From Devosia sp. (GTDB lineage Bacteria > Pseudomonadota > Alphaproteobacteria > Rhizobiales > Devosiaceae): 38,079 bases of DNA. This document shows positions 1,002 through 19,707 of this stretch, piece after piece; the first letter of the stretch is position 1, and every line of letters starts with the position of its first letter. The notes under the pieces were generated by a model, which was not told where the DNA came from, ran no database searches, and was given only the letters and a program-made list of their open reading frames with translations. The stretch lies in NCBI GenBank assembly GCA_015657675.1, contig JACDQI010000307.1, forward strand, positions 1 to 38,079. The letters run 5' to 3'. A program made the translations under genes and the position numbers.

Positions 1002-1051
1002 GGCGCTGGCTGGGGAACCTGGATTCGAACCAAGATTGACGGAGTCAGAGT
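1002..1051. repeat. attL: 50-bp direct repeat, displaced 3' end of tRNA-Gln
   Basis: These 50 bases are identical to 17996-18045. The match breaks at both ends (C versus T before it, G versus C after it). Read on the minus strand, 1007-1051 is the tRNA-Gln 3' part from the anticodon loop to the encoded CCA, without the 5' half. This is the scar expected when an element integrates into a tRNA gene and supplies a replacement 3' end. The integrase gene begins its 3' end 49 bp to the right. Confidence 0.93.
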
Positions 1052-1088: not shown

Positions 1089-1109
1089 CAGTGTGCCAAC
1101 TATGTGCCG
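1089..1109. promoter_or_regulatory. Left arm-type integrase binding sites
   Basis: Two 8-mers, GTGTGCCA (1091-1098) and ATGTGCCG (1102-1109), lie 11 bp apart. The whole 21-bp block recurs inverted at 17920-17940 with 19 of 21 bases matching. Paired short repeats on both sides of an attachment core are the usual layout of tyrosine-integrase arm sites. The block overlaps the integrase stop codon. Confidence 0.6.
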
Positions 1110-2266
1110 AACAAGTGCTTCTCGGCCGCTGCAAAGGCTGCGCTCTCGTCGGTGACGGGGAACAGATGCGCGTAGGTGTCGAAGGTCACCTGAATGCTGC
1201 CGTGCCCCATGCGCTCCTGCACCGCCTTGGCAGGCAGCTCGAGGCCGCCATCAGCTCGGCGGTTGATGCACCATGAGGCGAACCAATGTCGTAGGGCATG
1301 AAAGCCGGGATACTTCGGCTTGAGGTTCTCGCCCTCTCCGACTGTCACGCCGGCCGCTATCCATGCAGGCCAGAGGCCACGCTGCAGCATGTTCTGGTGG
1401 AATTCGACACCGCCCTCGGTATTGGGGAACACAAGGCCGCCCTCACCCTTCGGGCAGGCGAGTTTCCACGTCTTGAGCGTGTTGATGACCATAGGTGTCA
1501 GGGGAATGGTCCGCCGGCCAGCACCGGACTTCGGAGCCCCGATTTCCCGGTAACGGTCGGCTCGCTGTGAGACCGTGAGCTTGCCGTTGTCGAGATCCAA
1601 ATCGGACCAGCGCAGCCCGCGCGCCTCGCTGGCACGGATGCCCGTGAACACCATCGTCACCAGCAAGGGCCGCCAGCGGCCTGACACTGACGTCAGGAGC
1701 GACTTGATCTCGGAGCCGGTGGGAATATCCACGCCGACCTGCAGGCGCGGTTTGGCACGTCGGTCCGCCTTCTTTGAACGGGACCGGGACTGCTCATGCA
1801 CGGGGTTGCGGACAGTTAGCCCCCTGCCCTGCGCGTCGGCGATGATCGACCCCAGCGAGACGATCACGCGCTTAACCATGGCCGGCGATCGACCTCCCTC
1901 GCGCAACCTGTCCTGAAAGTCTCGGACGCCGGGCACGGTGAGTTTGTTGAGCCGGACTTCGCCGATAATCGGGACGATGTGGAGATCGAGGTGCTGACGG
2001 CGCTGGTCGAGTGTGGTGCGCTCAAGGCCATCGGCTTCGCCAGATTTCAGCCAGAGCTTGCCCGCTTGCTCGACAGTGACTGTCTCGGCGTCGGCGACGT
2101 GGACGCCTTCGCGAACTTCGGTCCGGGCCGTGAGCAGGAATGCGTCGGCGTCTTTTTTCCGCGCAAACATTTTTCGGCGCCGCTTGCCCTTGGCGTCGAG
2201 ATAATCGGCCTGCCAACCGGATTGCTCGACACCCTTGGTCGACCATGTGCGCTTGCGGACGCTCAT
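1100..2266 (-). CDS. Site-specific tyrosine recombinase (element integrase)
   Basis: A 388-residue phage-type integrase that would cut and rejoin DNA at the tRNA-Gln attachment sites. An N-terminal AP2-like arm-binding domain (WQADYLDAKGKRR) is followed by a SAM-like core-binding domain (about 65-165). The catalytic domain has all the expected residues: Arg211 in TGIRASEARGLRW, Lys246 in APKSG, His323/Arg326 in HALRHW, His355 in RMGHGS and nucleophile Tyr365 in FDTYAHL. I chose the ATG at 2266 (MSVRKRTW), which sits 2 bp after the upstream stop; a start 15 bp earlier would overlap that gene. The gene ends 49 bp from attL, the standard arrangement for self-encoded integrases. Likely transcribed with the membrane-protein gene upstream. 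Confidence 0.93.
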   Translation of the reverse strand: MSVRKRTWSTKGVEQSGWQADYLDAKGKRRRKMFARKKDADAFLLTARTEVREGVHVADAETVTVEQAGKLWLKSGEADGLERTTLDQRRQHLDLHIVPIIGEVRLNKLTVPGVRDFQDRLREGGRSPAMVKRVIVSLGSIIADAQGRGLTVRNPVHEQSRSRSKKADRRAKPRLQVGVDIPTGSEIKSLLTSVSGRWRPLLVTMVFTGIRASEARGLRWSDLDLDNGKLTVSQRADRYREIGAPKSGAGRRTIPLTPMVINTLKTWKLACPKGEGGLVFPNTEGGVEFHQNMLQRGLWPAWIAAGVTVGEGENLKPKYPGFHALRHWFASWCINRRADGGLELPAKAVQERMGHGSIQVTFDTYAHLFPVTDESAAFAAAEKHLFGT

Positions 2267-2268
2267 CC

Positions 2269-2781
2269 CTAGTGCCCCCAAAACTTGAAGCTGGCCTTAC
2301 GCTTGCCTCGCGACATCATCGACCGACGTCGAGCGGTCGCAACGGTCACCATTTGCGATCTGGCCTCCGAAACGGCCTCAATGGAAGAGGCGATGTCAGC
2401 AACCCAATTATCCTCGCGCGTCTTGAGCCGCGACCCCAGCACGTCAAGCGACACGTGAATCTCGTCCTCCAGGATGAGTGCTGCGATGGCCCCTACTTCA
2501 TCCAGCCGTCGGCGGGCATTTCGGTAGCGCTCCAGATGGGGCTCGGTGTCCACCTCTCGATTGACGGCGTAGGCGGAGAGCGTCTGCTCGAGCCCCCGCT
2601 GCATTTCGGCAAGGGCAACAAGTATGTCAGCAATCGCTTGCGTTTCACGTTCCCATGACTTCTCGGACTTGTAGCGCGCCAGTGCCCAATCAACCGTCAG
2701 CCGAGCGATCAAGAGCGCTGCGCCAAGCTGCAGGCCCATCTTGCTGAGTTCGGCCAGAGCGGCCGCGAGTTGAGGGTTCAT
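2269..2781 (-). CDS. Hypothetical membrane-anchored protein
   Basis: 170 residues with one hydrophobic segment near the N-terminus (about 14-34, GLQLGAALLIARLTVDWALA). A long helical, charged region follows (about 38-150) and the tail is very basic (ARRRSMMSRGKRK). I do not recognise the family. A single helix anchor with a coiled cytoplasmic body recalls the 262-residue membrane protein at the other end of the element. The start ATG at 2779-2781 has a GAGGG about 9 bases upstream. It runs into the integrase gene with a 2-bp gap, so the two are probably co-transcribed. A link to element maintenance or exclusion is only a guess from position. Confidence 0.55.
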   Translation of the reverse strand: MNPQLAAALAELSKMGLQLGAALLIARLTVDWALARYKSEKSWERETQAIADILVALAEMQRGLEQTLSAYAVNREVDTEPHLERYRNARRRLDEVGAIAALILEDEIHVSLDVLGSRLKTREDNWVADIASSIEAVSEARSQMVTVATARRRSMMSRGKRKASFKFWGH

Positions 2782-6889: not shown

Positions 6890-6956
6890 CACGCGAACGT
6901 CTCGCGACGGGAACGTCAGACCTTATGCGAACGAGGCAAAATGAAACAGGGACACC

Positions 6957-7005: not shown

Positions 7006-7036
7006 GCTCCAGATGCATGAGTGCGAAGTAGTCTCC

Positions 7037-7690
7037 CTAAGGAAGGCAGGACTTGAGAAAAGCACCCGCGGCTTCCATCCCGTCTTCGGAGATTGCATGC
7101 CCTGTTCTCGCCATGACAAACCGTTTGGCATGGATCCCAGCTTTGGATAGGGCATCTGCCGTAGTGGTGATGCCGTTGGTCCCCAGCAATCGATCATCGG
7201 CGCCGGTGATGATGAGGTAAGGCGGCCGGCTGCGCACCTCCTGCACGAGGGTATCCTTGCGCTTCATCCGGCCGGCAATGGCGACGACACCGGCCAGTTG
7301 ATCGGCTCGCCGTGGGCCGACCTCATAGGCGAGCCCTGCGCCCTGCGAGAAGCCGAGCAGTGCAAGCGAGGATGCGGGAAGTCCCGTTGCCGTCAGGTGC
7401 CGATCGAGAAAGTCGTCCAACAGCCCTGCGGAGTATCGGAGCTGTCGGTCGGACTCTGGGGGGCTGGAACCGTCCAACTCGGGGATCGTGTACCAGGCTC
7501 GGCCACCTGGCCGGCCGGCCGCCTGACCCGGCGCATCAGGCGCGAGGAAAGCCGTGTCGGGCAGTGAGGGCGACAGAACCTTTGCCAGCCCAAGCATTGC
7601 CGCGCCGTTCGCGCCAAAGCCATGGAGGAGGACGACAAGGCTTCGTGTCTCACCCGACTGGGCCGGGAGGTGCTCGTGGGTCAGGTCCAA
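7037..7690 (-). CDS. Phospholipase/carboxylesterase family alpha/beta hydrolase (MhqD-like)
   Basis: 217 residues of the compact Abhydrolase_2 family. The oxyanion region is LVVLLHGFGANG; the nucleophile Ser lies in GFSQGAG; Asp is in TGADDRL and His in ARTGHAISEDG. AFLAPDAPG and AWYTI are also family marks. These cytosolic esterases act on small acyl or aryl esters. In Bacillus a related hydrolase, MhqD, belongs to the methylhydroquinone-induced set together with DoxX and ring-cleaving VOC proteins, the same partners found here. The start is TTG 7690 with AGAGAG upstream; no ATG is available before the upstream stop. Last gene of the operon, about 100 bp after the second DoxX gene. Confidence 0.82.
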   Translation of the reverse strand: MDLTHEHLPAQSGETRSLVVLLHGFGANGAAMLGLAKVLSPSLPDTAFLAPDAPGQAAGRPGGRAWYTIPELDGSSPPESDRQLRYSAGLLDDFLDRHLTATGLPASSLALLGFSQGAGLAYEVGPRRADQLAGVVAIAGRMKRKDTLVQEVRSRPPYLIITGADDRLLGTNGITTTADALSKAGIHAKRFVMARTGHAISEDGMEAAGAFLKSCLP

Positions 7691-7792
7691 TTGTGCAATC
7701 TCTCTGTTTCAGGCGTGCTGGGGCAGAAATGGCGGCCGCCGACCCGCGTCCGGAAGTCGGCGGCTATCGATCTCGCGACGTGCGGGTCGACT

Positions 7793-8215
7793 TCATAGAC
7801 GACCATGAGACAGCCCCGTGACCCGGCGCAGATGCACCCACAGGATGAGCAGGGTCAGCGCCAGAATGACCGCCTTCACGGGGAGATCACTGAAGCTGCC
7901 CGCGGAAAGGTCGAGTCCAAGGGCTGCGATCTGGATAACCAGCAGAACCGCAGCGCCAACCGTCACAGTCGACGGAGGAAGCCGCAGCAGCCCAGGCATG
8001 ATCAGGCAGAGTGCGGCGAGCCCTTCAACCGCCGCCACGACGCGGACCACCCACAGCGGCGCGCCGGGGATCCAGATCAGGTCCATTTCGGTCAGGGCCG
8101 AAGGAGAGGATAGCCCTTCAAGCCATGCAGCGATAAGGAACGGGGTGGCAACGAGGATTCGGGCGATCCACAGGGCAGTGGCCCAAGTGTGAGGCAGGGT
8201 GTCAGGGCTGGCCAT
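7793..8215 (-). CDS. DoxX-like membrane protein (second copy)
   Basis: 140 residues with four hydrophobic segments (about 13-32, 51-72, 82-102, 113-130), the DoxX-like four-helix layout. The first helix with an Arg (IARILVATPFLIAAWLEGL) and the VVRVVAAVEGLAAL motif match DoxX/DoxX_2 proteins, inner-membrane proteins thought to work with quinones or thiol redox partners. It starts 6 bp after the cytochrome b561 stop, so translation is coupled. Sequence differs clearly from the DoxX at the operon start, so the two are paralogues rather than a recent duplication. Exact substrate unknown. Confidence 0.75.
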   Translation of the reverse strand: MASPDTLPHTWATALWIARILVATPFLIAAWLEGLSSPSALTEMDLIWIPGAPLWVVRVVAAVEGLAALCLIMPGLLRLPPSTVTVGAAVLLVIQIAALGLDLSAGSFSDLPVKAVILALTLLILWVHLRRVTGLSHGRL

Positions 8216-8221
8216 GGCGCC

Positions 8222-8722
8222 TCACTTCCGACGCGCGGGAAGCATCCGCGCCAGCGTCCCATCCTTGCGGACAAACTGATTGAACACGGCCGCGGCAGCA
8301 TGGGCGAGGGCCGCGAAGAACAGTGCAATGTTGATGCCGAAATGGACGCCGCCCAGTGGCGCGATCCCGTTCCAGGTCAGCATGCCGGTCACCACCATTG
8401 CGAGCAGGAGGCCGTACAACAAGAAGTGCATGGCGTCGGCGAGGCGACCCTGCAGCGCCGAAGTGCCGGCCGCGTGGCCGGGAACACCGTAGCGCCAGCG
8501 CAGGTAGAAGCGCGCAATGACAGCGAGCAGGATTGTACTGCCCACGCCAACATGGACCCAGGCCGATGTCAGGTCCGTGGCCGCAGGTACTTGCCCTGCC
8601 TCACGGGCATCAAGAACCGCGACGATGGCATCGTGGAAGCCAATCTGGACGATCACGCCGACGACAACGATCCAGTGCAACCAGATCTGTGCGGGGCGGT
8701 AGGCAGAGGACGTGGTAGCCAT
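8222..8722 (-). CDS. Cytochrome b561-type diheme membrane protein
   Basis: 166 residues, four transmembrane helices. Histidines sit where the b-type heme ligands are expected: LHWIVV (helix 1), AWVHVGVG (helix 2), DAMHFLLYGLLLAMVVTG (helix 3) and AALAHAAAAVFNQFVRKDGTLARM (helix 4, with the family's NxFVxKDxTLxRM tail). Members pass electrons between quinol and soluble or periplasmic acceptors in the inner membrane. GGAG lies 8 bases upstream of ATG 8722. It sits between the ring-cleaving dioxygenase and the second DoxX, which suggests handling of quinone redox state. Family is secure, partner is inferred. Confidence 0.88.
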   Translation of the reverse strand: MATTSSAYRPAQIWLHWIVVVGVIVQIGFHDAIVAVLDAREAGQVPAATDLTSAWVHVGVGSTILLAVIARFYLRWRYGVPGHAAGTSALQGRLADAMHFLLYGLLLAMVVTGMLTWNGIAPLGGVHFGINIALFFAALAHAAAAVFNQFVRKDGTLARMLPARRK

Positions 8723-8819
8723 TGCAGGGCTCCGGTTTGAGGACTGGGTCGTTGTCAGGCGAGAGAGCAGGGGCGGCGCGCGGCTGCGATGCGGACCGCT
8801 GCGAGGGCGGCATGGGCGG

Positions 8820-9754
8820 TCATGCCGCCACCTCCTTGCGGGACTGGGTGGCGCTCAGCGACAGGTTCAGCGTGACGCCTGCGGGGTCGGTGCCGGTCAG
8901 GGCCCCGGTCGTCGGCTCCTCGGTCAGTTGCGCTGCCGCGGAGCTGAAGGTCGCGGTGTCGCTGGTTTCCAGCCGATAGGACAGCAGGCGCGCCGAGGTC
9001 GCCGGCGCGGGTCGTGCGCCGGGACCCGCCCAGAGGTTCATGGCCAGCCGATGGGTATAGGCCCCTCCAGCGCCCATATCGGCCATGCCGACATGGTCCA
9101 GAAGCAGGTTGCGCGCAAAACCCAGGCCCTCGAACCAGGCGAGGGACGGCTCCAGAGCCGGGACGTGCAGGTGCAGATGCGCGACCGTTGCATCACGGTG
9201 CAAGGGCAGCGCGGGATCGACGCCGTCGGCGAGGGCCAGCTCGGCCGCAACATCAAGGCGTTCGCGCCCGCTATGGACCCGGCCCTGGGCGTCGAACATG
9301 GTGAAGCCGCCGCCGTCATTGCCGAAGCTTCCGAAGCGCTCGGGTGTCTCCCAGGCGATCTCGATGCCGTGCCCGTCCGGATCAGAGAGGTAGAGCGCCT
9401 TGGACATCAGGTGATCGACCGGTGAAAATGGCAGGCCGAGTGCGATGAAGCGCAGCATCCGGCGCGAGAATTCCGCCTGGGAGGGCATGCCGAACGCCAC
9501 ATGGTACATCCCCGCGTGGCCCCGGGCGACCGGGCCGGTGGCGCCGGGAGTGAGCACCACCAGCGTCCGGTCGTGGGTGCCCAGTGCCAGACCAGGACCC
9601 TGTTGGGGGCGGCGGACAAAGCCCAAGGCCTGGGTCCAGAACGCCTCCGCGCGCCGAAATTGGTGACCGACAAGGTCACCGGGCCCCAGGTCAGCCGTTC
9701 GGAAAGTCCGTCGGCCTGGCGTTGCCGGGCGAGTTCGAGTGCGTCGGTGTCCAT
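8820..9754 (-). pseudogene. VOC ring-cleaving dioxygenase (CatE-like), frameshifted
   Basis: About 311 residues if one base is restored. The N-terminal frame begins MDTDALELAR and reads WGPVTLSVTNFGA; the rest continues in another frame as EAFWTQALGFVRRP. The break is in the GC run at about 9645-9657. Two vicinal-oxygen-chelate modules follow, with GMYHVAF, DHLMSKALYLSDPDGHGIEIAWE and, in the second, VAHLHLHVPALEPSLAWFEGLGF and NLWAG. His in YHVAF, Glu in IEIAWE and the HLHL histidines are probable metal ligands. This architecture is that of catechol 2,3-dioxygenases like Bacillus CatE. It follows DoxX by 24 bp, the same gene pair as catD-catE. The single-base break looks like a sequence error. 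Confidence 0.75.
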
Positions 9755-9778
9755 GTCGGCCTCCGGATCAGCAGGGGG

Positions 9779-10210
9779 TCAGGCGCGGGGCGCGATCGGG
9801 GCCTTGCGGGCGCGGCCCCAGAGCACGAAGAGGGCCAGCGCGACGTAGATCAGGTTGAAGCCGAGCACGCCGAATTCGCCACGGATCATATGGAACGGGA
9901 TGGCCAGAGCCTGGATCGCCAGCAGACCTGCCGCGGCCCACACGGTCAGCTGCGGCATGATGCGGGTCAATGCCGGCAAGATCACACCCACCGCGCCGAG
10001 GAATTCGACCACGGCGATGCCTCGTACCAGAAAGACCGGCGCGCCTGAGGTCCAGGCCATGCCCATGTTGGCCAGATCGGCTATGGGCATGGTGCCCTTC
10101 ATCCCGGCGGCCATAAGGTAGAGACCGGAGAGCGCAATCTGGCCGCCCCAGATGGCGATGTTCCAGCCGCGGCTGGTGGGAGCAAGCGAGGGAGTAGCGG
10201 TCATTGTCAT
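9779..10210 (-). CDS. DoxX-like membrane protein (CatD-like), first gene of the redox operon
   Basis: 143 residues, four predicted helices (about 19-37, 58-80, 86-106, 112-131). IALSGLYLMAAGMKGTMP, then FLVRGIAVVEFLGAVGVILPAL is the conserved N-terminal half of DoxX_2 proteins, with a short charged C-terminus. In Bacillus, CatD is a DoxX-family protein encoded just before the ring-cleaving CatE and induced by catechol and quinones; the same order is seen here. The gene diverges from the LysR gene across a 226-bp spacer. AGGAAAGG lies about 8 bases before the ATG at 10210. Function as a quinone-linked membrane partner is inferred. Confidence 0.78.
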   Translation of the reverse strand: MTMTATPSLAPTSRGWNIAIWGGQIALSGLYLMAAGMKGTMPIADLANMGMAWTSGAPVFLVRGIAVVEFLGAVGVILPALTRIMPQLTVWAAAGLLAIQALAIPFHMIRGEFGVLGFNLIYVALALFVLWGRARKAPIAPRA

Positions 10211-10258
10211 GTGTCGAGCCTTTCCTAGTGTTGAACGGGCCGGGCCCGGGTGTCTCTG

Positions 10259-10274
10259 GCGCTGTTTCTAGCGC
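10259..10274. promoter_or_regulatory. Candidate LysR operator in the divergent spacer
   Basis: GCGCT-6-AGCGC is a short interrupted dyad midway between the divergent LysR and DoxX starts, where LysR proteins usually bind. A second GC-rich palindrome, CCGGGCCCGG, lies at 10240-10249. Arms are short, so the assignment is tentative. Confidence 0.3.
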
Positions 10275-10436
10275 TCAAAACGCGCGGGATCATTCCGCAA
10301 CGACCGAAAGCAGACTTTCTCTGCAGTTGATGATCTTGCTGGATGGGCCGATTTTCTTCATCGAGCGGCAACGGTTCGCCGCCTACTCTGGGGCGCTCGC
10401 GGGCCTTGTGTTCAAACTGATCTTCCGGAGGAAAGC

Positions 10437-11342
10437 ATGGACAGCCTTCTCAGCCTGCGGGTTTTCGCTGCGGTGGCCGAGGCAAGGAACTTCTCCGTGG
10501 TGGCGGAGCGCCTGAACCTCTCGGCCGCCATGACCAGCAAGCACGTGCAGCATATCGAGGCCCAGGTCGGCGCGCGGCTTCTCCACCGCACCAGCCGCAG
10601 CGTCAGTCTCACCGAAGCGGGAGCGGTCTACCTGGCGACGGTCCGGCCACTCCTGGAGGGACTGGATGAGGTGGGTGCCCGGCTGGCCCAGTCGACGATC
10701 GATCCGAGCGGCACACTCAAGATTTCGCTCCCGGTCTGGCTGGCAGAGCCCGGCTTCGTCCGCATGCTGGCGGCCTATAGGGAGAGGTACCCGGCGGTGA
10801 ACCTGGATCTCGATCTGAGCGGACGACAGGTCAATCTGGTCGAGGACGGCTATGATCTTGCCCTGCGAGTCAGTCCGTCCTTGCAGGAGGGCTTGATCGC
10901 GCGCCGGCTGGCCGACATCACGTTCCTTCTTGTCGCTTCCCCGCATCTCCTGGATCGGATCGGGCGCCCCAGCACGATGAAGGACCTGACGGGGGCGCCC
11001 TTTCTCGCCTACAGCCCGGTCACCACTGGTGGGCGCGTGCGGCTGGGTCTGGGGCCGAATGCGCCGGAGGCGCACATGCGGTTTGTGCTCCAGAGTGCCA
11101 ATGAGACGGTGCTGTTTCAGGCTGCGCTGGAGGGGATGGGGATCGCCATAATGCCTCACCTTGCGGCACGGCCCTATCTGGACGCGGGACGTCTGGAGCG
11201 GCTCCTGCCCGAACTCACGCCGCCGACGGTGGCGCTGGCAGGTATCTATCCGGAACGCAGTTACCTGCCCGCCAAGACACGCAGCCTGCTCGATTTTCTG
11301 GCTGGCAAAGAGGGCTTTGGCGGTTCGCCCACCCTTGCCTGA
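10437..11342 (+). CDS. LysR family transcriptional regulator
   Basis: 301 residues, normal LysR length. The N-terminal winged helix is complete: MDSLLSLRVFAAVAEARNFSVVAERLNLSAAMTSKHVQHIEAQVGARLLHRTSRSVSLTEAG. A periplasmic-binding-type sensor follows (GTLKISLPVWL, DLDLSGRQVNLVEDGYDLALRV, GMGIAIMPHLAA), most like the AaeR/DmlR group with the VNLVEDGYDLALRV motif. GGAGGA is 6 bases before the ATG. It diverges from the DoxX-VOC-cytochrome-DoxX-esterase operon, which it probably controls in response to an aromatic or quinone compound. The ligand is inferred from context only. Bacillus uses MarR-type repressors for similar genes, so the control here is different. Confidence 0.88.
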   Translation: MDSLLSLRVFAAVAEARNFSVVAERLNLSAAMTSKHVQHIEAQVGARLLHRTSRSVSLTEAGAVYLATVRPLLEGLDEVGARLAQSTIDPSGTLKISLPVWLAEPGFVRMLAAYRERYPAVNLDLDLSGRQVNLVEDGYDLALRVSPSLQEGLIARRLADITFLLVASPHLLDRIGRPSTMKDLTGAPFLAYSPVTTGGRVRLGLGPNAPEAHMRFVLQSANETVLFQAALEGMGIAIMPHLAARPYLDAGRLERLLPELTPPTVALAGIYPERSYLPAKTRSLLDFLAGKEGFGGSPTLA

Positions 11343-11555
11343 ACGGGGCCGGCTGGGCGACCATCATTTCTCCTTAAGAAACGCTGGATCAATTTTACCA
11401 CCAATGATCTCCCTGTAGCGAAAGATTAGCTTCCTCTCATCGGGACACGGTTCGCCGTTCAGGCCCGAACAGACTGAAGCCCGGATGGTCTCCGGCAAGG
11501 TGCGCATGGCGTCGCTCACCGGAGACCGCAACCCAGATCACTCAAGGAGACCACC

Positions 11556-12047
11556 ATGTCGATCACCCGCCGCGCGCTGCTGGCGCTTGCCACCGCCTCC
11601 ACTGCCCTGTCGCTGTTTGCCGGCACGGCCTTTGCCCAGGACAACTACAAGGAAAAGATCCGCATCTTCTACGACACCTTCAACACGAACGATGCGAACC
11701 TTCTGGACCAGATCCTCGCCGAGGACTGGGCGCATATCCCGGCCGCCCCGGGAGAGGAGCCGGGCCGCGACGGCTTCAAGAAGCAGATTCCCGGCTTTGC
11801 CACCACGTTCAAGGATGGCAACATCAAGATCGAGGACATCGTCCAGGAGGGCAACAAGGTGGTTGTCCGCTCAACCTACACGGCAACCCAGGCCGGCCCG
11901 TTCATGGGGTTCGAGGCAAAGGGCCGCCCCTTCACCATCATGACGATCGATATCCACGAGTTCAACGAGGACGGTCTCGTGCAGACCAGCTGGCACCTCG
12001 AAGACTGGCTGGGCGGGCTGTTCCAGATGGGCGCCTTCGAGCAGTAA
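11556..12047 (+). CDS. Exported SnoaL-like (NTF2-fold) ester cyclase family protein
   Basis: 163 residues. A signal peptide is evident (about 1-28, ITRR then a hydrophobic stretch ending AFAQD; the twin Arg could mean Tat export). The mature part has the SnoaL/NTF2 pattern: IRIFYDTFNTNDANLLDQILAEDWAHIP, GFKKQIPGFATTFKDGNIKIEDIVQEGNKVVVRST, and IDIHEFNEDGLVQTSWHLEDWLG, which matches SnoaL-like polyketide cyclase or ester cyclase domains. Strong AAGGAG precedes the ATG. It is transcribed alone, 213 bp after the LysR gene. The role is unknown; binding or turnover of a small hydrophobic ring compound would fit both the fold and the neighbours. Confidence 0.8.
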   Translation: MSITRRALLALATASTALSLFAGTAFAQDNYKEKIRIFYDTFNTNDANLLDQILAEDWAHIPAAPGEEPGRDGFKKQIPGFATTFKDGNIKIEDIVQEGNKVVVRSTYTATQAGPFMGFEAKGRPFTIMTIDIHEFNEDGLVQTSWHLEDWLGGLFQMGAFEQ

Positions 12048-12164
12048 CCTTCAGCGACAATGGCGGCTCGGGGCCATGGCTCCGGGCCGCACTTGATATT
12101 GCCACGGGAGTTTTACGAAGTCATCAAGTGCACGACACTGCATGTCTCGTCGCGCCATCAGCGT

Positions 12165-12184
12165 CCGCTTGGGGCCAGAAGCGG
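12165..12184. repeat. Short intergenic dyad (CCGCTT/AAGCGG)
   Basis: CCGCTT (12165-12170) pairs with AAGCGG (12179-12184), flanked by GCGT and TCGT. This motif resembles a dispersed intergenic palindrome common in rhizobial genomes. It stands 118 bp after the SnoaL-like gene and may also end its transcript. The rest of 12048-12360 shows no gene. Confidence 0.3.
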
Positions 12185-12360
12185 TCGTAGGCGCCCTCGC
12201 AAGAAGTAATGGTCAACCGTATCCCGACGACTCTCGCCCTTGCGGCGGGACGGCGGGAGCAGACCGAGCGTCTTGAACGAGGTCGGTCACGAATTCGGCA
12301 GCGCATCGCCAGCCGTGCGCGCGTCAAGCAATTGGCCTCACCCCTTCCGGGCGCGACCTA

Positions 12361-12698
12361 CTTTCCCTGCGCGAGTCCCGGCATTGCGGCGGGACGTTCA
12401 CCCGACCGATGCCAAGTCGGTGTATTGCTCTACCGGGTGCAAACACCAAGGGCGCCGGGTCTGTCGTCACGCCATTGAATGTCAGCACTGCCGCAAAGAA
12501 CTCCGGCCGACCAACTGGAAAAGAAATCTTGCAGCCGGGAGCGTCGGGAGGCCCACGACCGGCCGCGCGACCACCGCTGGAATTGCAGTATGGTGCGGTG
12601 AGGCATTACCCGCAGCCGAGGCCGGCGCACACTTCTGTAAGGCGCTGCCTCCTCGTTTCCTATCGCTGCAACCTGGGCAGCACGCCTTTCGGCAGTAA
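12361..12698 (+). pseudogene. Degenerate zinc-finger gene fragment
   Basis: One frame reads RHCGGTFTR (12379-12405). A shift of one base then gives TDAKSVYCSTGCKHQG (to about 12450), a typical C..CGxxFTPTDAKxxYCSxxCK zinc finger like that of small island regulators. The second frame continues through a CQHCRKE motif to a stop at 12698. No start codon or ribosome site is evident. It is probably a relic of a finger protein broken by an indel; a short functional protein is unlikely. The surrounding 700 bases otherwise contain no gene. Confidence 0.35.
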
Positions 12699-12741
12699 GC
12701 ACTTCGGTGCTTGGACTAGGTGTCGTATCAGCGCATATTCC

Positions 12742-12765
12742 GTAACATTGCTAAAGCAATGATAC
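12742..12765. promoter_or_regulatory. 24-bp hix-like palindrome with AA core before the serine recombinase
   Basis: Eleven-base arms GTAACATTGCT and AGCAATGATAC match as inverted repeats at 10 of 11 positions around a central AA dinucleotide. This is the form of a serine-recombinase crossover site, in which the two central bases are the overlap. It lies 15 bp before the recombinase ATG, so it could be its crossover site, its autoregulatory operator, or both. Confidence 0.55.
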
Positions 12766-12780
12766 AAACGAGGCAGAAAA

Positions 12781-13464
12781 ATGCAGGTCTATGGGTACAT
12801 CCGAGTGTCCACCGCCGAGCAAGCGGCGACCGGCGATAGCCTCGACACTCAGCGCAACAAGGTGCTCGGCTACGCGCTGATGCAGGGATGGCAACTGGCT
12901 GACGTCTACGTCGAGTCGGGTGTCAGCGGCTCTGTACCGCTTGCGGAGCGACCCGCCGGCGCCAAACTGCTCGGCATCATCGAGAAGGGCGACGTGATCG
13001 TTACGCCGAAGCTTGATCGAATGTTTCGCTCGGCCTCGGACGCGCTCGGCACATTGGAGGAGATGAAAGCCCAGGGTGTTGGTTTGGTGATGCTCGATCT
13101 TGGCGGAGACGTGACCAGCAATGGTATCAGCAAGATGGTGTTCACGATCCTCTCGGCCGTCGCAGAGCAGGAGCGAGACCGCATCCGGGAGCGCATCCGT
13201 GAGGTGAAGCGACATCTGGCCTCGCAGGGCGTGTATGGTGGTGGGAAACCGCCGTATGGCTATGACGTTGTGGATGGCCGTCTGGTCGAGAACGAGGACC
13301 AGCAGCGCATACTCTCCACCATGCGGGGCATGCGGGACAATGGTGATAGCTACCGGATGATCGGGGCCGCCGTGGGCATGCAGCCGATGACCGTCAAGCG
13401 GATCCTCGACCGGGTGCCGATTACGCCCGACCGGCAGCCGATTGCGTCAGCCGTCGGCGCCTAG
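12781..13464 (+). CDS. Serine recombinase, resolvase/invertase type
   Basis: 227 residues. The catalytic domain starts VYGYIRVSTAEQ with nucleophile Ser10 and Arg8, includes SLDTQ, DVYVESGVSG and PKLDRMFRSASDAL (catalytic Arg pair), and ends with the long E-helix region EQERDRIRERIREVKRHLASQGVYGGGKPPYGY. A short C-terminal part (RMIGAAVGMQPMTVKRIL) is a plausible helix-turn-helix. Length excludes the large serine integrases and fits the resolvase/invertase group, with a longer GGKPPYGY linker typical of recombinases in mobile elements. A near-perfect palindrome lies just upstream. It may resolve, invert or have moved the cargo that it borders. Most likely a separate acquisition from the tyrosine integrase. 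Confidence 0.88.
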   Translation: MQVYGYIRVSTAEQAATGDSLDTQRNKVLGYALMQGWQLADVYVESGVSGSVPLAERPAGAKLLGIIEKGDVIVTPKLDRMFRSASDALGTLEEMKAQGVGLVMLDLGGDVTSNGISKMVFTILSAVAEQERDRIRERIREVKRHLASQGVYGGGKPPYGYDVVDGRLVENEDQQRILSTMRGMRDNGDSYRMIGAAVGMQPMTVKRILDRVPITPDRQPIASAVGA

Positions 13465-13682
13465 AGTGCTCTACTGCGGCTGATAGTCGGCCAATGGTCC
13501 AGCAGGTCTTGCGGTCATTCTCGTCGGCCTTCCCGTCATTCCCCAGAGCCGAGTTGGTGACACGCATTGTGAGCCGCTCCTTCGCACCTGGCCAGGCGCT
13601 GCTCCACAAGATAGAACTTTGCAAGATACGCAGAAACCAAAGTGGAATGGCAGGGATGAACGCTGCGGCGCCAGCCGCGCAT

Positions 13683-14471
13683 TCAGACGTCGTAGACGAT
13701 CGTCAGACCTGGGCGGTTGCCGAAATACTCCTTCGACACCTTGCTCAGCTTAGTGGCCACAGCCTTGCCCTGGGCAACGACTCTTGCCGGGCGATCTGCA
13801 AAATTCGCAACAAGATCGCCAAGGATGTGGGCCTGCATCGCTGCGCGACTTGCATATTCGCTTTGGAACGTTGTCTCGAAAGACCCATCCGGGTTCTGAA
13901 CGGGTGTGCTGAACTCGGCGGCGAAGGCATCCCAGCTACCGCGGAGCGAATTGTAGCGGGCGAGGCAGGCGCGCAAGGTTTCAACCTCATCGCTCAGCCG
14001 TATGCAGTCATTGATGACGTCCGCCGCCTTCGCCTTGATAAAGGGCACAAAGTCCTCGCTCACGAACTGGGGCGCCGCGTTCTCGGGCATGACTGTGGGT
14101 GTGATGACGCTCCAAAGTTCCGAGGCCGGAGTGTTGGGGGCAACCCGACTACGTGCCTCATCAACGATCAGCTGCAGATTGTAGGCGAGGTTGGTGAGCC
14201 GCTGCGCGGTGATTATCGCTCTACTTGCCCCCGCTTGCTCTACGTTGAGCCGTGCCTCTTCGTCCCGCCGCAGGGTGATCTGACTGCCTCTTTCTGCGAT
14301 CACGTAGGAGATTACTCCGGCGACAAGGACGCCCCCGAAGCCGGCTAACAAGGTGCTGCCAGACGGGGAGGCAGCAAATGCTTCGATATCGGCGCCCCAT
14401 CGCTGGGCGGTCCCGGTACCAAGTGCAATACCAGTTGTTAAGCCGATAAAGCCGGCCGTTGCTCTTCGCAT
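13683..14471 (-). CDS. Hypothetical membrane protein with large soluble domain
   Basis: 262 residues. Two hydrophobic segments near the N-terminus (about 8-22, and 39-58 with LLAGFGGVLVAGVISYVIAERG) are followed by a helical soluble region of 200 residues without known motifs. The start ATG at 14471 is preceded by GGGAGG at a good distance; an in-frame GTG at 14486 overlaps that ribosome site and is not used. It is the last gene of the right-hand unknown block and is convergent with the serine recombinase. Membrane anchoring plus a helical body is seen in many effector or sensor subunits of defence and exclusion systems, but nothing here proves it. Confidence 0.6.
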   Translation of the reverse strand: MRRATAGFIGLTTGIALGTGTAQRWGADIEAFAASPSGSTLLAGFGGVLVAGVISYVIAERGSQITLRRDEEARLNVEQAGASRAIITAQRLTNLAYNLQLIVDEARSRVAPNTPASELWSVITPTVMPENAAPQFVSEDFVPFIKAKAADVINDCIRLSDEVETLRACLARYNSLRGSWDAFAAEFSTPVQNPDGSFETTFQSEYASRAAMQAHILGDLVANFADRPARVVAQGKAVATKLSKVSKEYFGNRPGLTIVYDV

Positions 14472-14707
14472 TAGTGTGCCTCCCACTGGCGGCTTGTAGT
14501 AGGGCGTTGATGCCCCGGCCCTACCCCACCGAGGAAATAAATGCGCGCGGCAAATCCGTAATCGGCGCGTTACGCGCTACGATCAAGAACGCCGACCTTG
14601 AACCGGCCGACGAGCCTGTGCGCATCAAACTCAGGTAGTCCGGACGGGATCGACGCCATGCCCAGATACCCCCGGGTCGAAAACCCGGCGAGCCGGTAGA
14701 CCCACAC

Positions 14708-15761
14708 TTAGACAAGATAGGTCCAACCATTTCGGGCGTGAGCCGCTTGGGCTACGTGCGCCATTAGCTCGGCGCTTATGGACATAATGCCCGTTCCTTC
14801 CAGGTTGGAAAAGCGCAAGAGATCGGAAAGGTCACCGCCGCCCAGTAGAGTGGTCATTGAGTCCCCTGCGTGCACTGCCTCCAGGTCGATAAAGGCGGCT
14901 ATCTGATCAAATTCTAACGGCGGAACATGTTCAAGGCCAAAGTCGAGCGCATCGACAAGCGGGCCGAACGCGTGAACCTCTGCCCTTTCGACGCCTCTGT
15001 CGAGCGACAGCAGCCTGATGACATGGTGGTCACGGTTTGTGCGGACATTAAGTACCGTCGGGGCTGGCTGTAGCCTAGCGGTCCCGCTAGCGAGCACGTC
15101 AGCCCGCACTGTCAGCAACACGACGGGAGGCAGCGAACCGGCCCGATCTGGAGTGATAATGATGCCCTCAAAAGCCCCGCCCCATCCGTCAGCGATGCCC
15201 TCGCCCGTAGCTTCTTGCCAGCCCATGAGTTGGCAGACGAGCTGATTAGCAAATGACGTTTGGGCAATGAATGGGTCTGCGTGCGTGCCTGGACGCCAGA
15301 CGAGTGTGCGCTCCAGTACGCGAACAAGATGATCCGCCCCGCTGCCGGCGACGAAGCCTTCCGGATTAGAGACTTGAGTAACCTTCCCGTATGCGGTCTG
15401 CAGTGGCTTCTCCCGGGAGAAGAAGCGTTGCGAGCACCGTGAGGTTGTCCCTCCACTCTTCAGCCACCTGAAAGACGAGATCTAGGAAGCTCTCCTCGTC
15501 GGTCCACCGCGGCCGATCCCGCAGATGTCGGATAACGACTCTGGCCTGCTCGAGGTCGCCTGCCCATGCGAGAACCGTTTGCTCATCCAGGGGCTGAAGT
15601 TTGCGAACACCACGTGAGACCGGCAGCGACTTGCTCTGCAGATCGGCCGCTATGCCGGTCGGCAGAATGATTGGCTTCCCAGGAGATCGGTTCGAGGTGA
15701 CTATCGCGTCGCCAATGAGAAGCGTTGCTCCGCCTAAATCGAGTTGTGCAATGAGCGTCAT
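14708..15761 (-). pseudogene. Candidate Ntn-hydrolase (HslV/proteasome-like) protein, frameshifted
   Basis: About 350 residues once one extra base is removed. The first frame begins MTLIAQLDLGGATLLIGDAIVTS and includes VLAWAGDLEQARVV. Near 15410-15440 the coding frame shifts by one; the second frame reads FVAGSGADHLVRVLE and runs to the stop at 14708. The opening Met-Thr, the GxxLLIGDxxVT strand pair, the AGD segment and the GSGADH turn are laid out as in HslV and proteasome-type hydrolases, where the Thr after Met is the nucleophile. The C-terminal 170 residues are unknown. Homology is proposed from pattern only. It lies 77 bp after a two-helix membrane peptide gene and downstream of an HNH gene on the same strand. 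Confidence 0.45.
15407..15422. repeat. 16-bp perfect palindrome at the frameshift point
   Basis: CTTCTCCCGGGAGAAG sits exactly where the reading frame of the Ntn-like gene changes. A perfect dyad with direct CTT/AAG extensions could cause polymerase or sequencing slippage. A role in programmed frameshifting is possible but not supported by a known slippery motif. Confidence 0.4.
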
Positions 15762-15838
15762 GATATGGCAGCGATCCCGACTTCCGCGATGATGGCTCCT
15801 GGCCGAAAGGCTAGAGCCTGCGCGGAGGCTCACCGAAA

Positions 15839-16033
15839 TTATCGTCGCCGTTTCAGGGACCAGAGCAAGACTCTGAACGCAATGCCGCCTGTCACCGCGC
15901 CCACGACCGCGGCCGCCAAACCGGCTGGCAGGTAGCTCACATCTCTGTCTCCCGGATACAGTATCACCGCCGTGGCCATCATTGCCGCGAGGCCAATGGC
16001 GATGGGGAGCACCGGCAACAAGCGGGCGAACAT
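15839..16033 (-). CDS. Small two-helix membrane protein
   Basis: 64 residues: two hydrophobic segments (about 6-26, LPVLPIAIGLAAMMATAVILY, and 36-58, LPAGLAAAVVGAVTGGIAFRVLL) joined by a short polar loop (PGDRDVS) and ending in KRRR. This is a small hairpin membrane protein. The ATG at 16033 has GGAGGAGG 4-9 bases upstream, a very strong ribosome site, which supports real translation. It starts 12 bp after the restored stop of the HNH gene and ends 77 bp before the Ntn-like gene. Small two-helix proteins beside nucleases or proteases can be holin-like, immunity or toxin subunits; no homologue is known to me. Confidence 0.65.
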   Translation of the reverse strand: MFARLLPVLPIAIGLAAMMATAVILYPGDRDVSYLPAGLAAAVVGAVTGGIAFRVLLWSLKRRR

Positions 16034-16045
16034 TCACACCTCCTC

Positions 16046-16755
16046 CTAGTCAGGCGGGAATCCCTCGCCCAAAGGAAAGATTGCCATGAGGAGGATCTTG
16101 TCCCAGAGCAACATCGCCCAATAGTTCCACCCGGGATTCTCCGTCCTGTGCCGATAGGCGAATACACCTTGGTGATTACCCTTGCTCGTCTGCGCCTCGG
16201 ATCCAGCATAAATAGTTCAAAGTGCTGAGGCGGGTTCGAACGGGGGAACGTGATATCCCACACGATCTTTACGTCTTGCGGGAGGACATATCCGGTTTCG
16301 ACGTAATGTAACCCTCGCACGATCTTGTCGGCAACACGGTAAAACCGATCGCCTTCGAACTGGTACGCCATCGTGCTGGCTGGCAGAAGGATGTTCCCGA
16401 CCTTGTTCGTCCACTGCCCCTTGATCCTGTTGACCAAGCCGACATTCATGCCGGCATGATATTCCTCGATCGTCTTTCGATAGAGGGCCGTGGCCGGTTC
16501 GTTCCCTCCCCTGAGGTAGGGCACGAGGTTCTGGACAAAGTACCGCTCATCCATCTCGTACGAGAGGTTGCAGGCGGAATGAACCCGACGCGTCACAAGC
16601 CGGACGGGTGCATATTTTCTCCGCAGACCGGGCGTCATCGTTTGCTTCGGCGGGATGTGGTCAACATTCGTTGCCTCGCCAGGCAGCATAGCGTGGCCGC
16701 ATAGGTAGCAAGTCTCCCTTACCGCCTCCGCGTCGGCCTCAGCCCGCATATGCAT
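16046..16755 (-). pseudogene. HNH-type endonuclease-like protein, frameshifted near its C-terminus
   Basis: About 236 residues if one missing base is restored. The N-terminal part reads ETCYLCGHAMLPGEATNVDHIPPKQ, then VHSACNLSYEMDERYF. The CxxC pair, DHIPP (catalytic His) and HSACN follow the zinc-finger/beta-beta-alpha order of HNH nucleases. After FELFMLDP (about 16199) the frame changes and the natural end reads NYWAMLLWDKILLMAIFPLGEGFPPD, stopping at 16046-16048 just before the ribosome site of the two-helix gene. Without repair the frame runs on to 15979 with an unnatural Arg/Cys-rich tail. The start at 16755 or 16749 overlaps the preceding gene by 11-17 bp, so the genes are coupled. A nuclease role is likely; the target is unknown. 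Confidence 0.65.
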
Positions 16756-17161
16756 CGTGGGAGTCGAAGTTCTGCTTGCACTGTGGGCAGGTGGCGATGC
16801 GCCGGCCATCCAGTACTCCACGTACGAGCCGCATTATCCGGCCGTCGACGCCCAGGCAGCGGGGACATACAGCGTAGCCATGAATTCCGCCGTCGGAGTC
16901 GGGGATGAAGTCGAAGCCCCCTTGGTGCACCAAGGTTTCCTTGACGGCGAAGGAGTCCTTTAGGCGGGCAAGTTCCCGGTCCTTCTGCTGCATCACGTCT
17001 TGCAGCTCAAGCAGCGCGATCTTGGCATCAGCAAGTTGGCTGGCGAGATCGGCCACATGAAGCTTGAAGCTCGCCGCGTCGAAGTCCTTCTCGATGTTGC
17101 GAAGGGCCGAAACGATCCCTAGCGCGGTACTCACACTGGTAAGCGCAGTTGGTATGTCCAT
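16739..17161 (-). CDS. Coiled-coil zinc-ribbon protein
   Basis: 140 residues. Residues about 20-75 form a heptad-rich coiled coil (LASQLADAKIALLELQDVMQQKDRELARLKDSF). A zinc ribbon follows with CPRC (about 98-101) and CPQC (about 127-130), close to the C-terminus NFDSHDAYAG. The layout, with an N-terminal helix resembling MDIPTALTSVSTALGIVSALRNI, fits small cytoplasmic proteins seen next to nucleases in accessory regions. No function is known to me. Its stop lies inside the start region of the HNH gene, so both should be made together and may work as a pair, for example with this protein as adaptor or sensor. That is inference. Confidence 0.65.
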   Translation of the reverse strand: MDIPTALTSVSTALGIVSALRNIEKDFDAASFKLHVADLASQLADAKIALLELQDVMQQKDRELARLKDSFAVKETLVHQGGFDFIPDSDGGIHGYAVCPRCLGVDGRIMRLVRGVLDGRRIATCPQCKQNFDSHDAYAG

Positions 17162-17212
17162 AGACGCATCCCCGTTAAAGTAAACAACCTTAGGGCGAAG
17201 ACGCCGACAAGC

Positions 17213-17791
17213 CTACAGTCGCGTGGAAACTACGCGACCACTTTTTGGATCCCACTCGTCCCGCGCCGCCTTTACTTCATCGGCGAGAACGGCGCCCGTG
17301 AAGCTTTGATATTCGGCGATGCTCAGGTGGATAATTCGCGACCTCAGGTGCCAATCCGAGACTATCAACATCCCATCAGCGAGGCCCGCCTGGTCGCCAA
17401 TCACCATCAACTGTGACGAGTGAATTATCTCATCCGCGAGGCCCTTCGGCTTGAGGCGCACGATAGCCGGTGCTGCGAGCTCAAAGTTGGCAAGTGTCCC
17501 GCCGGCTGATCTATGGAAAGCGGGCCGATCAATGTCGCGCTCAACTTTGGGGAACGTTCGGACTTCCAACTCAATCGCGCTGAAGCTGTCCGTCAACAGC
17601 CGTTTCTCTAGCAGTCGGCGGACGCAGAAAGCGCTGAGGCAAAGGGCACGTTCGAGCATGTGGTGCGGGTTGTGCTCGCCGTTGAAACCCTCATCTAGGA
17701 CCTCGAGGATATGCTCACGGACCTGGGCCGCTTGCAGGGCCAGCTCGTTCTTCCAAGTGTAGGCCTGCCAGTCAGCCCAATGTGCGGTCAT
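17213..17791 (-). CDS. Hypothetical protein, first gene of the unknown right-end block
   Basis: 192 residues from ATG 17791, preceded by AAGCGAGAAA. It is helical in the first half (WQAYTWKNELALQAAQVREHILEVLDEGF, HMLERALCLSAFCVRRLLEKRLLTDSF) and mixed in the second, with no motif I recognise and no membrane segment. It starts only 60 bp from the right arm sites, a typical place for recently gained cargo, and is followed after 52 bp by the coiled-coil zinc-ribbon gene. A conserved EHNPHHMLERAL region might be a useful search seed. Function unknown. Confidence 0.5.
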   Translation of the reverse strand: MTAHWADWQAYTWKNELALQAAQVREHILEVLDEGFNGEHNPHHMLERALCLSAFCVRRLLEKRLLTDSFSAIELEVRTFPKVERDIDRPAFHRSAGGTLANFELAAPAIVRLKPKGLADEIIHSSQLMVIGDQAGLADGMLIVSDWHLRSRIIHLSIAEYQSFTGAVLADEVKAARDEWDPKSGRVVSTRL

Positions 17792-17850
17792 TTTCTCGCT
17801 TCGCGCACAAGCTCTCACCCCTTGTGAAGGCTCCGATACGCTTCATCACA

Positions 17851-17940
17851 ATGTGCCATCTCATGTGCCACGGAGGCGCGGGGAGGAGCAAGAAGTGCTG
17901 AGAAATGCTGGTTTTTACACGGCACATGGCTGGCACACTG
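17851..17940. promoter_or_regulatory. Right arm-type integrase binding sites
   Basis: Direct ATGTGCCA copies lie at 17851-17858 and 17863-17870. An inverted pair, CGGCACAT (17920-17927) and TGGCACAC (17931-17938), is an inverted near-copy of the left pair, with the same 11-bp offset. The block ends 56 bp before the right direct repeat. Confidence 0.6.
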
Positions 17941-17995
17941 TGGACTACAGGAAAATCCGCAAATCTGCCAAAACCACTAATATTTTCAGATAGTT

Positions 17996-18045
17996 GGCGC
18001 TGGCTGGGGAACCTGGATTCGAACCAAGATTGACGGAGTCAGAGT
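17996..18045. repeat. attR: 50-bp direct repeat within tRNA-Gln
   Basis: Identical to 1002-1051. It covers the tRNA-Gln 3' part (18001-18045) and five bases beyond it. The copy here completes a functional tRNA, so the element restored the gene on insertion. The two copies set the element length at about 17.0 kb. Confidence 0.93.
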
Positions 18046-18074
18046 CCGTAGTTCTACCGTTGAACTATTCCCCA
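18001..18074 (-). tRNA. tRNA-Gln (anticodon CUG), integration target
   Basis: A 74-nt cloverleaf on the minus strand with encoded CCA. The acceptor stem pairs TGGGGAA with TTCCCCA (U1-A72, a glutamine identity feature). The anticodon stem ACGGA/TCCGT encloses loop CTCTGAC, giving anticodon CUG, which reads CAG. The T arm carries GGTTCGAATCC. The 5' half (18046-18074) is host DNA and the 3' half lies in the attachment repeat. The gene is intact despite insertion of the element. Confidence 0.95.
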
Positions 18075-18503
18075 AGCGCGAAGCGCAAGGAAAGGACAGC
18101 GGCGCGAGGCGCCGGGGTGTCGTTTCGGGGTGCCTTGTAGCGGCAATGCTCGCGGGGATCAACTGGTTTTGCGGAAGATCGTGAAGCGAAGCTCAAATAG
18201 CTGAAATCGTTCGGTTTTGAGGTGCTGGGCGGGTGTGAATAGCCCGCCGACACAGGACCGCATAGCATCACCCTTGTCCAGACCAGTCGGAAGAAGATGG
18301 GGCGCGTGTGGTGAGCGGCTCGAACAGATCGGGCTCTCCCACCCCCCACCCTGTCCCTCCCCCGCAAGGGGGGAGGTGACACTGCTGCCGGTGCACGCGG
18401 CCAAGCACTCGGGAACAGCCCTCGTGGCCATCTCGTCTCAAATCGCTCCACGGGAGCGATCTGGCCTGCGGTCGGCTCGGAGTCCCGCAAGGGGGGCCTG
18501 CCG
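18075..18503. other. Intergenic stretch upstream of tRNA-Gln
   Basis: About 430 bases between the tRNA and the first dehydratase gene. Open frames here are short and compositionally biased. It includes the GC-rich palindrome at 18356-18376 and several CCGCAAGGGGGG-like runs (a second near 18483). No gene is supported. Confidence 0.5.
18356..18376. repeat. Intergenic GC-rich palindrome (CCTCCCCC/GGGGGAGG)
   Basis: CCTCCCCC (18356-18363) and GGGGGAGG (18369-18376) form an 8-bp stem with a GCAAG loop, within a run of CCCACCCCCCACCCTGTCCC. Palindromes of this type are scattered between genes in Hyphomicrobiales. It may be a dispersed repeat rather than a terminator, as no T-run follows. Confidence 0.5.
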
Positions 18504-19707
18504 TCAGGCGTCGAAGAAGCCGGCGTCTTCTTCCTTGAGGTACTTTTTGGCGCCGACGGCGTCGATGTCGAGCCCGAGGCCGGGAGCCGGGAGAAGGTCG
18601 ACGTGGGAGTTTTTGACGATCGGGCCATCGGGGAGACCGATTACGATGTCGTTCCACCAGGGGTCGGAGGCCGAGGGGTACTCAAAGGCGATGTAGTTGG
18701 CCGGCAGGGTGGCGCAGACGTTGATCAGCGCGCCGAGGCCGAGCAGGCCGTTGGCGGTGCCGTGTGGGGCCATCATGATCGAATGCATGTAGGCGTGCTC
18801 GGTGACCCACTTGAGTTCGGCAATGCCGCCGATATCGGCCGGATCGGGACCGATGACGCGGACGGCCTGAGTCTCGATCAGTTCCTTGAAATTGTGGCGC
18901 AGGTAGATCTGCTCGCCGGTATGGATCGGCGTGGTGGTGGAGGTGGTGAGCTCGCGATAGGCCTGCGGGTTGACCCACGGGACATAGTCGCCGGTCAGCA
19001 TGTCCTCGAGCCACATGAGGTTGTATTTTTCCACGGCGCGGGCAAAGCGGATGGCATCGTTGAGGAACCAGCCGGGGCCGCAGTCGAGGGCGAGCGAGAC
19101 CTTGTCGCCAAGGGCTTCCTTCATGGCGATGACGCAATCGAGCATGTAGTTGAAGCTGTGCTCAGAGATCTGCCCCTGGTCCATGGCGCCGTGATAGGTG
19201 GGCGGCTGGCGGACACCGTAGTGGAAGTCTTCCTGGGTCGTCTTCATGGACGAGTGGAAGCTGATGCCCTGCTTGACCATGAAAAAGCCCTGCGGCTGCT
19301 CGGCCATCCACTTGACGTCGGCGGCAAAGTCCTCGGGGCGGTCGCCGGCGCGGGCCTTGCGGACCGAGCCGTTATAGACGCGGACCTTGTCGCGCACCTT
19401 GCCGCCGAGCAGCTTGTAGACCGGCACGTTGGCGGCCTTGCCGGCAATGTCCCAGAGGGCGTGTTCGATGGCCGAGACGGCGGCGCCATAGGGCTTGAAG
19501 CTGCCGCGCTGGCGGATTTTCAGCATCACGCGCTCGACGTCGGTGGGGTCCTCGCCGATCAGCGCGTCGCGGAAATGCAGCACCCAGGGTTTCAGGTAGG
19601 GCTTGGTGTATTCCACCTCGCCCCAGACCATAGAGGCCCTCATCGGTGACGATGCGGACAATCGGGTGCTTGCCGATGACGGCACAGCGCAGATCAGTGA
19701 TTTTCAT
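18504..19707 (-). pseudogene. Enolase-superfamily sugar-acid dehydratase, frameshifted near its N-terminus
   Basis: About 400 residues after removing one extra base. The N-terminal frame reads [27 protein letters not shown], then at about 19630-19640 the frame changes and continues [12 protein letters not shown] to the end. The capping domain is followed by a TIM barrel with LDCGPGW (metal Asp), WLEDML (Glu), HTGEQIY (Glu), [10 protein letters not shown] and MAPHGTAN (His), the mandelate racemase/muconate-lactonising plan. The substrate is unknown. A long insert ([30 protein letters not shown]) is unusual. It diverges from the IclR gene and probably belongs to its regulon. The break is probably a sequence error in a GGT/CTGGGG run. 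Confidence 0.78.

Follow-up and report, generated by a model that had tools for sequence, protein, structure and literature searches.

The six-gene minus-strand block at 13683..17818 of the window (the whole 38,079-nt stretch of Devosia sp. DNA analyzed here, to which all coordinates refer) is best explained as accessory cargo of an element integrated at a tRNA-Gln gene, a mosaic of separately travelling genes of which the best understood, g2, would encode a distant member of the Rip1 family; we give this reading a probability of about 0.62. The genes are labeled g1 to g6 in transcription order, and all six reading frames were found where an earlier sequence-only reading had placed them. That reading had taken the block for a single undescribed system at the variable end of a mobile element. 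The location is confirmed, and the single system is not, as homologues of g1, g2 and g5 were found in unrelated contexts. What speaks for a mosaic is an element bounded by repeats and carrying an integrase, a g2 that belongs to a known family, a g5 that keeps its catalytic positions, and g1, g2 and g5 relatives that occur apart from the rest of the block.

The ends of the element are marked by perfect 50-bp direct repeats, one of which lies mostly inside tRNA-Gln(CTG), and a tyrosine integrase is encoded just inside the far repeat. Because of these tRNA-Gln repeats and the position of the integrase, we read 1002-18045 as an integrated element of approximately 17 kb in the tRNA-Gln gene, judging from the sequence. 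The block occupies the opposite, tRNA end of this element and is adjoined by the gene for a serine recombinase. The guanine-plus-cytosine (GC) content in 1-kb bins is 0.57-0.61 across the block versus 0.61-0.70 in the host flank, and when the DNA of the integrase end was compared with plasmids, the matches were confined to the tRNA repeat. The genome that holds the window (contig C115) comprises 3.94 Mb in 317 contigs.

The best functional lead of the block is g2, which appears to encode a distant Rip1-family protein. Against PHROGs it matches phrog_1244 at E 1.5e-6 over nearly its full length (residues 5-136 against 7-147 of 157), the same model that the Rip1 chain matches at E 2e-51, and against Pfam it gives sub-threshold noise only. 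Relatives of g2 were found on 10 plasmid records, seven of them with at least 80% of g2 covered, and another in phage RcWaterboi. When a profile of g2 and four relatives (A6, five sequences) was compared with the PDB, the sole match below E 0.001 was Rip1, 'ring interacting pore 1' (9oox, E 4.2e-12). The link that this suggests rests on the family, with more Rip1-like members, among them the RcWaterboi protein (E 3.5e-28), serving as the bridge. The coiled coil and zinc ribbon that had been proposed for g2 hold up: cysteines 99, 102, 125 and 128 are invariant in all five family sequences and form a four-cysteine ribbon after the coiled coil, and a single-sequence model of moderate confidence (predicted local distance difference test, pLDDT, 63) has helices at 3-23 and 29-79. 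We examined 11 loci with g2 relatives, namely nine of the ten plasmid loci, the RcWaterboi locus, which lies in the early region of that phage, and the genome locus L054. The relative stands without the rest of the block at all 11, and no HNH neighbor was seen there, with neighbors mostly annotated as hypothetical and five scanned with Pfam. According to the available text of a conference report, the RIP1 of the Maxwell laboratory is a prophage-encoded defense that blocks replication of the incoming phage; 12 monomers of it sit on a terminase complex of 11 subunits, an arrangement that suggests a pore (PMC12908700). We infer that this RIP1 is the Rip1 of the PDB entry; the name is spelled out differently in that text, but 9oox likewise has 12 such chains.

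The product of g5 is, by its conserved positions, a rare proteasome-like N-terminal nucleophile (Ntn) hydrolase in which the catalytic positions are kept. Among 398 genomes of the phylum (its own included), eight match at E up to 0.01: its own, two whose relatives are convincing (E 3.3e-10 and 4.4e-10), and a further five, at E 0.0026-0.0092, that were dropped before counts as chance. One convincing relative is in G117, a genome of the same order, and the other in a metagenome-assembled genome of Mariprofundus. Other samples gave a match in none of 100 relatives, only in the already-known G809 among 78 genomes, and only in its own genome and G117 among 347; a single match at E 0.006 among 384 other genomes of the class was dropped as chance. 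Of two further contig scans, one returned nothing and the next only the Mariprofundus contig already found, recognized by its length of 10,714 bases and its position. Both relatives stand without other block genes, and G117 has no g3 match. In G117 the neighbors are what we take to be flavin monooxygenase-like and phosphogluconate dehydratase-like genes, one on each side, and the Mariprofundus relative adjoins a TerB-DnaJ gene, with further neighbors that are presumably argJ- and secA-like.

Identity within the g5 family to the window protein is 23-25%. All three sequences keep Met1-Thr2, D18, a lysine (K54/55/59) exactly 14 positions before a glycine (G68/69/73), and a G-[ST]-G motif, and in the window the equivalents of the catalytic positions all fall within the first frame. 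The threonine, aspartate, lysine and glycine fit Thr1, Asp17, Lys33 and Gly47 of the proteasome, with a spacing that presumably matches as well, and we take G-[ST]-G to be the Ser129 site. In the available text of a study of proteasome homologues, Thr1, Asp17 and Lys33 are the catalytic triad and Gly47 is the oxyanion-hole residue (PMC8665760). A g5-family profile compared with the PDB at E up to 1 matched proteasome subunits in 20 of 20 cases (best E 0.001, approximately 45 positions), which are related to each other and count as one weak signal, and an AlphaFold model of the Mariprofundus relative reached a pLDDT of 33. Read through the break, g5 matches no Pfam family at E up to 10; its two frames, searched apart, match no NCBIfam model at E up to 1 and no PHROG or PADLOC model, and its relatives have no match in Pfam. 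The threonine nucleophile suggested by the sequence-only reading is retained in its proteasome-like form, with Thr1, Asp17 and Lys33 kept in three of three sequences, and its likeness to HslV is not, as no HslV model matches. HslV or another housekeeping protease was rejected as the identity of g5, no proteasome or HslV model of Pfam or NCBIfam having matched. A search for an HslU partner gave no AAA+ match among the block proteins, the rest of the genome not having been searched.

Far from being an orphan, as had been supposed, g1 has relatives on eight plasmid records (tblastn, to E 2e-32), six of which are typed as conjugative, and at two IMG/VR loci with 47% and 36% identity. Phage records gave no match to g1, and a g1-family profile found nothing in the PDB. 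Six g1 loci were examined, the two from IMG/VR and four of the eight on plasmids, and strong defense models lie close to the g1 relative in three of them, a count with no background rate behind it. In Mesorhizobium (L008) a type IIG-like methyltransferase (E 5.4e-29) heads the gene row of the g1 relative, at L062 an AbiJ/Abi_C gene is directly upstream (PADLOC 7.5e-11, Pfam 2.6e-16), and on a Gluconobacter plasmid (L007, 8373-10229) a CBASS-like cyclase and a phospholipase (E 1.4e-124 and 7.3e-156) lie approximately 2 kb away. Of the remaining loci, L005 has just a weak restriction-enzyme match near the g1 relative, L006 places it within an SOS/DNA-polymerase region, and at L063 no defense gene was seen nearby by eye. 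Judged by these neighborhoods, g1 probably serves as an accessory of defense carried on plasmids and islands.

Two of these loci merit a separate remark. The row at L008:1607-6684, in which the type IIG-like methyltransferase and the g1 relative stand with two proteins without a PADLOC match, is possibly a restriction-type unit that has not been described before. At L062:2872-4369 the closest g1 relative (47%) lies 22 bp downstream of the Abi_C/AbiJ gene, and the two may form an abortive-infection unit.

The remaining genes are less informative. By its motif g3 is a putative HNH-type nuclease, and it is nearly unique: the sequence C-x2-C, DH, H-x2-C-N, read by eye, is what we take to be an HNH-type metal site. 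Its matches to PHROG HNH models are weak (phrog_589 at E 0.0048 over residues 13-36, phrog_144 at E 0.049), and Pfam gave no match at E up to 10, such that the HNH-like call of the sequence-only reading stands on the motif, and the overlap with g2 on the chosen start. The only strong relative is on one plasmid record of Microvirga lotononidis, where the match is split into two pieces and covers 83 residues, and none was found in 149 other genomes of the order, in phage records or in viral contigs. Three matches at E 0.0038-0.0052 among 278 other genomes of the phylum, with stops inside, were dropped as chance. The Microvirga fragment (L004:6001-6242) lies approximately 1 kb from a 1003-residue open reading frame (ORF), which we take to be a Tn3-type transposase. 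The two-helix peptide with a very strong ribosome site that had been described for g4 is confirmed by two hydrophobic stretches and by a ribosome site that is the strongest of the six (duplex energy -13.4, versus a 0.5% background value of -10.3); its Pfam matches are weak and sub-threshold. In g6 one hydrophobic stretch is above the cut-off, and relatives were found neither on plasmids nor in 60 other related genomes. Both g4 and g6 are predicted orphan membrane proteins.

The arrangement of the block bears on how its genes may be coupled. The start of g3 at 16749 was our choice, its frame being open from 16821, and given that start g2 and g3 overlap by 11 bp. The gap between g3 and g4 is roughly 12 bp, and the other junctions measure 51, 77 and 221-236 bp. 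The ribosome site of g6 is also strong (-10.2), and none was detected for g3 at the chosen start. Phase-specific GC fits the frames of the block, with a frame change visible in g3 (near 16170) and in g5 (near 15400); at g6 it is similar for a plus-strand ORF at 13494-14348 and gives no decision against that ORF. The features of the window are collected in Table 1. Beyond the element, short stretches at approximately 18329-18395 and 18406-18495 have many copies in the same genome and in the genus, like dispersed repeat elements.

Table 1. Coordinates of the integrated element, the six-gene block and the integration target.
Feature	Position	Strand	Evidence
Attachment-site repeat, far end of element (copy of tRNA-Gln 3' part)	1002..1051	.	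Perfect 50-bp direct repeat with 17996-18045
Tyrosine integrase of element	1100..2281	-	Pfam Phage_integrase E 4.9e-19
Short serine recombinase (resolvase domain)	12781..13464	+	Pfam Resolvase E 3.5e-33; phrog_95 E 1.3e-52, positions 88-282 of 651
g6, 262-residue protein, one clear hydrophobic stretch, no relatives found	13683..14471 (or to 14486)	-	Hydrophobic stretch at residues 39-60
g5, putative proteasome-like Ntn hydrolase, two frames	14708..15761 (frames 15366-15761 and 14708-about 15430)	-	Catalytic positions and profile
g4, 64-residue peptide, two hydrophobic stretches, strong ribosome site	15839..16033	-	ORF, hydrophobicity and ribosome-site energy
g3, putative HNH-type nuclease by motif, C-terminal part in another frame	16046..16749	-	Motif read from sequence; weak PHROG HNH match
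g2, Rip1-like coiled-coil zinc-ribbon protein	16739..17161	-	phrog_1244 E 1.5e-6; profile A6 matches Rip1
g1, 192-residue protein, family mainly on alphaproteobacterial plasmids	17213..17791 (or to 17818)	-	tblastn matches to E 2e-32; alignment A5; two IMG/VR loci
Attachment-site repeat at tRNA end	17996..18045	.	Perfect 50-bp direct repeat; mostly inside tRNA-Gln(CTG)
tRNA-Gln (anticodon CTG), integration target	18001..18074	-	tRNA call

Every activity that we assign to this cargo, and defense as its net role, we infer from likeness to characterized proteins and from neighborhood. By analogy with Rip1, for which the ring is that of a terminase, g2 would detect ring-shaped components of an infecting phage and gather on the rings, and its N-terminal helix may then form a membrane pore by which infection is stopped. 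In the same proposal g1 would be an accessory to plasmid- and island-borne defense, g3 would cut nucleic acid, g5 would act as a threonine-nucleophile peptidase, amidase or protein ligase of proteasome-like fold, and g4 and g6 would be membrane proteins. The defense makeup attributed to the block by the sequence-only reading survives in the membership of g2 in phrog_1244 together with Rip1 and in the defense genes near g1 relatives at three of six loci; what is not supported is one undescribed six-gene system.

Several results weigh against cargo of this kind with a Rip1-family protein in it. Neither g2 alone (phmmer) nor A7, the closest three-sequence profile, finds Rip1 in the PDB set, an hhalign comparison of A7 with Rip1 gave E 4.4e-4 at a probability of just 34%, and Foldseek on the g2 model, itself at the moderate pLDDT given above, found nothing below E 0.001, with Rip1 absent among the best 50 matches listed. 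A scan of viral contigs with A7 confirmed no g2 relative, and just one of 178 other genomes of the order has one (L054, half of the length). Convincing defense genes are absent at three of the six g1 loci, for which a background rate for plasmid neighbors was not computed, and none of eight block proteins or pieces matches PADLOC (2023 library) at E up to 0.1. The overlap of g3 with g2, finally, hints at coupling.

Among the rival explanations, a genuine multi-gene defense unit, in which a Rip1-like sensor would release an HNH nuclease, a two-helix membrane peptide and an Ntn hydrolase as effectors or activators on sensing, would account for six genes on one strand, for the overlap of g3 with g2, for g4 following g3 so closely with a strong ribosome site, and for sensor-like and effector-like parts standing side by side. 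We nonetheless regard it as distinctly improbable: no second copy of the six-gene set, or of any pair of block genes, was found, no plasmid record is common to the g1 list (8) and the g2 list (10), none of these 18 records matches g3, g5 or g6 (they are single records, which leaves the chromosomes of those strains uncovered), and both g5 relatives occur without the other genes, that in G117 without a g3 match. A more specific form, in which ring binding by a Rip1-family sensor opens the membrane and licenses translationally coupled effectors, the HNH nuclease among them, while the proteasome-like hydrolase processes one partner, is very unlikely. Because g2 and g3 overlap, a two-gene g2-g3 unit keeps a better standing, and two or more small units, with a g2-g3(-g4) defense module of a Rip1-like protein and its own nuclease beside unrelated g1, g5 and g6, would explain why the g2/g3 overlap and the short g3-g4 gap contrast with the wider junctions elsewhere. 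This, too, we hold to be unlikely, given the lack of an HNH neighbor at the 11 g2-relative loci, mostly hypothetical as the annotated neighbors are, and the failure of g3 to match any of the 10 g2 plasmid records.

That the block is decaying junk, no longer functional, would agree with its two broken frames (g3 and g5) and with the only strong g3 relative being itself in two pieces, but we find this scarcely credible. A host gene of the enolase superfamily at approximately 18504-19707, 0.7 kb beyond the block, is also split into two frames here and forms an intact single 400-residue frame in L019 and L020 (of nine loci tried, these two were informative; at the remaining seven, another reading frame was the longest and was the one taken). 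With a break in this neighboring host gene as well, sequence errors (assembly or sequencing indels) are a likelier cause than decay for those in g3 and g5, and the frame-specific GC signal persists to either side of each break. A phage origin was likewise rejected, as viral contigs held no relative of the first g5 frame, g3, profile A1 or the g2 profile A7, and phage records no match for g3 or g1, g6 having been compared with PHROGs only. The preferred reading remains a mosaic of separately travelling genes carried by the tRNA-Gln element.

As such the block is accessory cargo of an ordinary sort, notable for two of its genes: one belongs, distantly, to the Rip1 family, and the other encodes a proteasome-like hydrolase that is rare and keeps its catalytic positions. 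The occurrence of the former on an alphaproteobacterial island and on plasmids suggests that a recently described phage-sensing pore defense may be wider than its prophage source. With the latter, the little-understood proteasome-like hydrolases gain a few more sequences, including one that a mobile element carries in a defense-flavored setting; according to the available text of PMC8665760, genomic context gave no hint of a function for the novel homologues described there. If g5 acts in phage defense, the proteasome-like family would gain a testable role, and if the very unlikely arrangement of a Rip1-family sensor with coupled effectors were true, it would be the first defense unit to combine a pore protein that senses rings with a nuclease and a proteasome homologue.

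Compared with known systems, g3 shares with the HNH endonucleases (phrog_589, phrog_144) the motif of the metal site, and differs from them in the weakness of its profile match and in having no close relatives besides the two-piece Microvirga match. The protein encoded by g2 resembles Rip1 (PDB 9oox; phrog_1244) in length and in having a helix region at the N terminus, a coiled coil, a C-x2-C...C-x2-C ribbon at the C terminus and a near full-length match to the same PHROG; it differs in being distant enough that g2 alone fails to find Rip1, and its overlap with an HNH gene is unseen in the 11 other loci. With the prokaryotic proteasome-like family, which in the available text of PMC8665760 includes HslV, Anbu, BPH, connectase and 22 further groups, g5 shares the threonine after the start methionine, correctly spaced equivalents of Asp17, Lys33 and Gly47, and a profile that matches proteasome subunits, whereas approximately 20 extra residues between Asp17 and Lys33, a long C-terminal part and the absence of a Pfam or NCBIfam match set it apart. 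The same text describes PMI-5 as a rare proteasome homologue restricted to Proteobacteria, with 19 sequences and an insertion between strands S3 and S4 (PMC8665760), and by that description g5 may resemble PMI-5 both in its extra residues between Asp17 and Lys33 and in its rarity in Proteobacteria.

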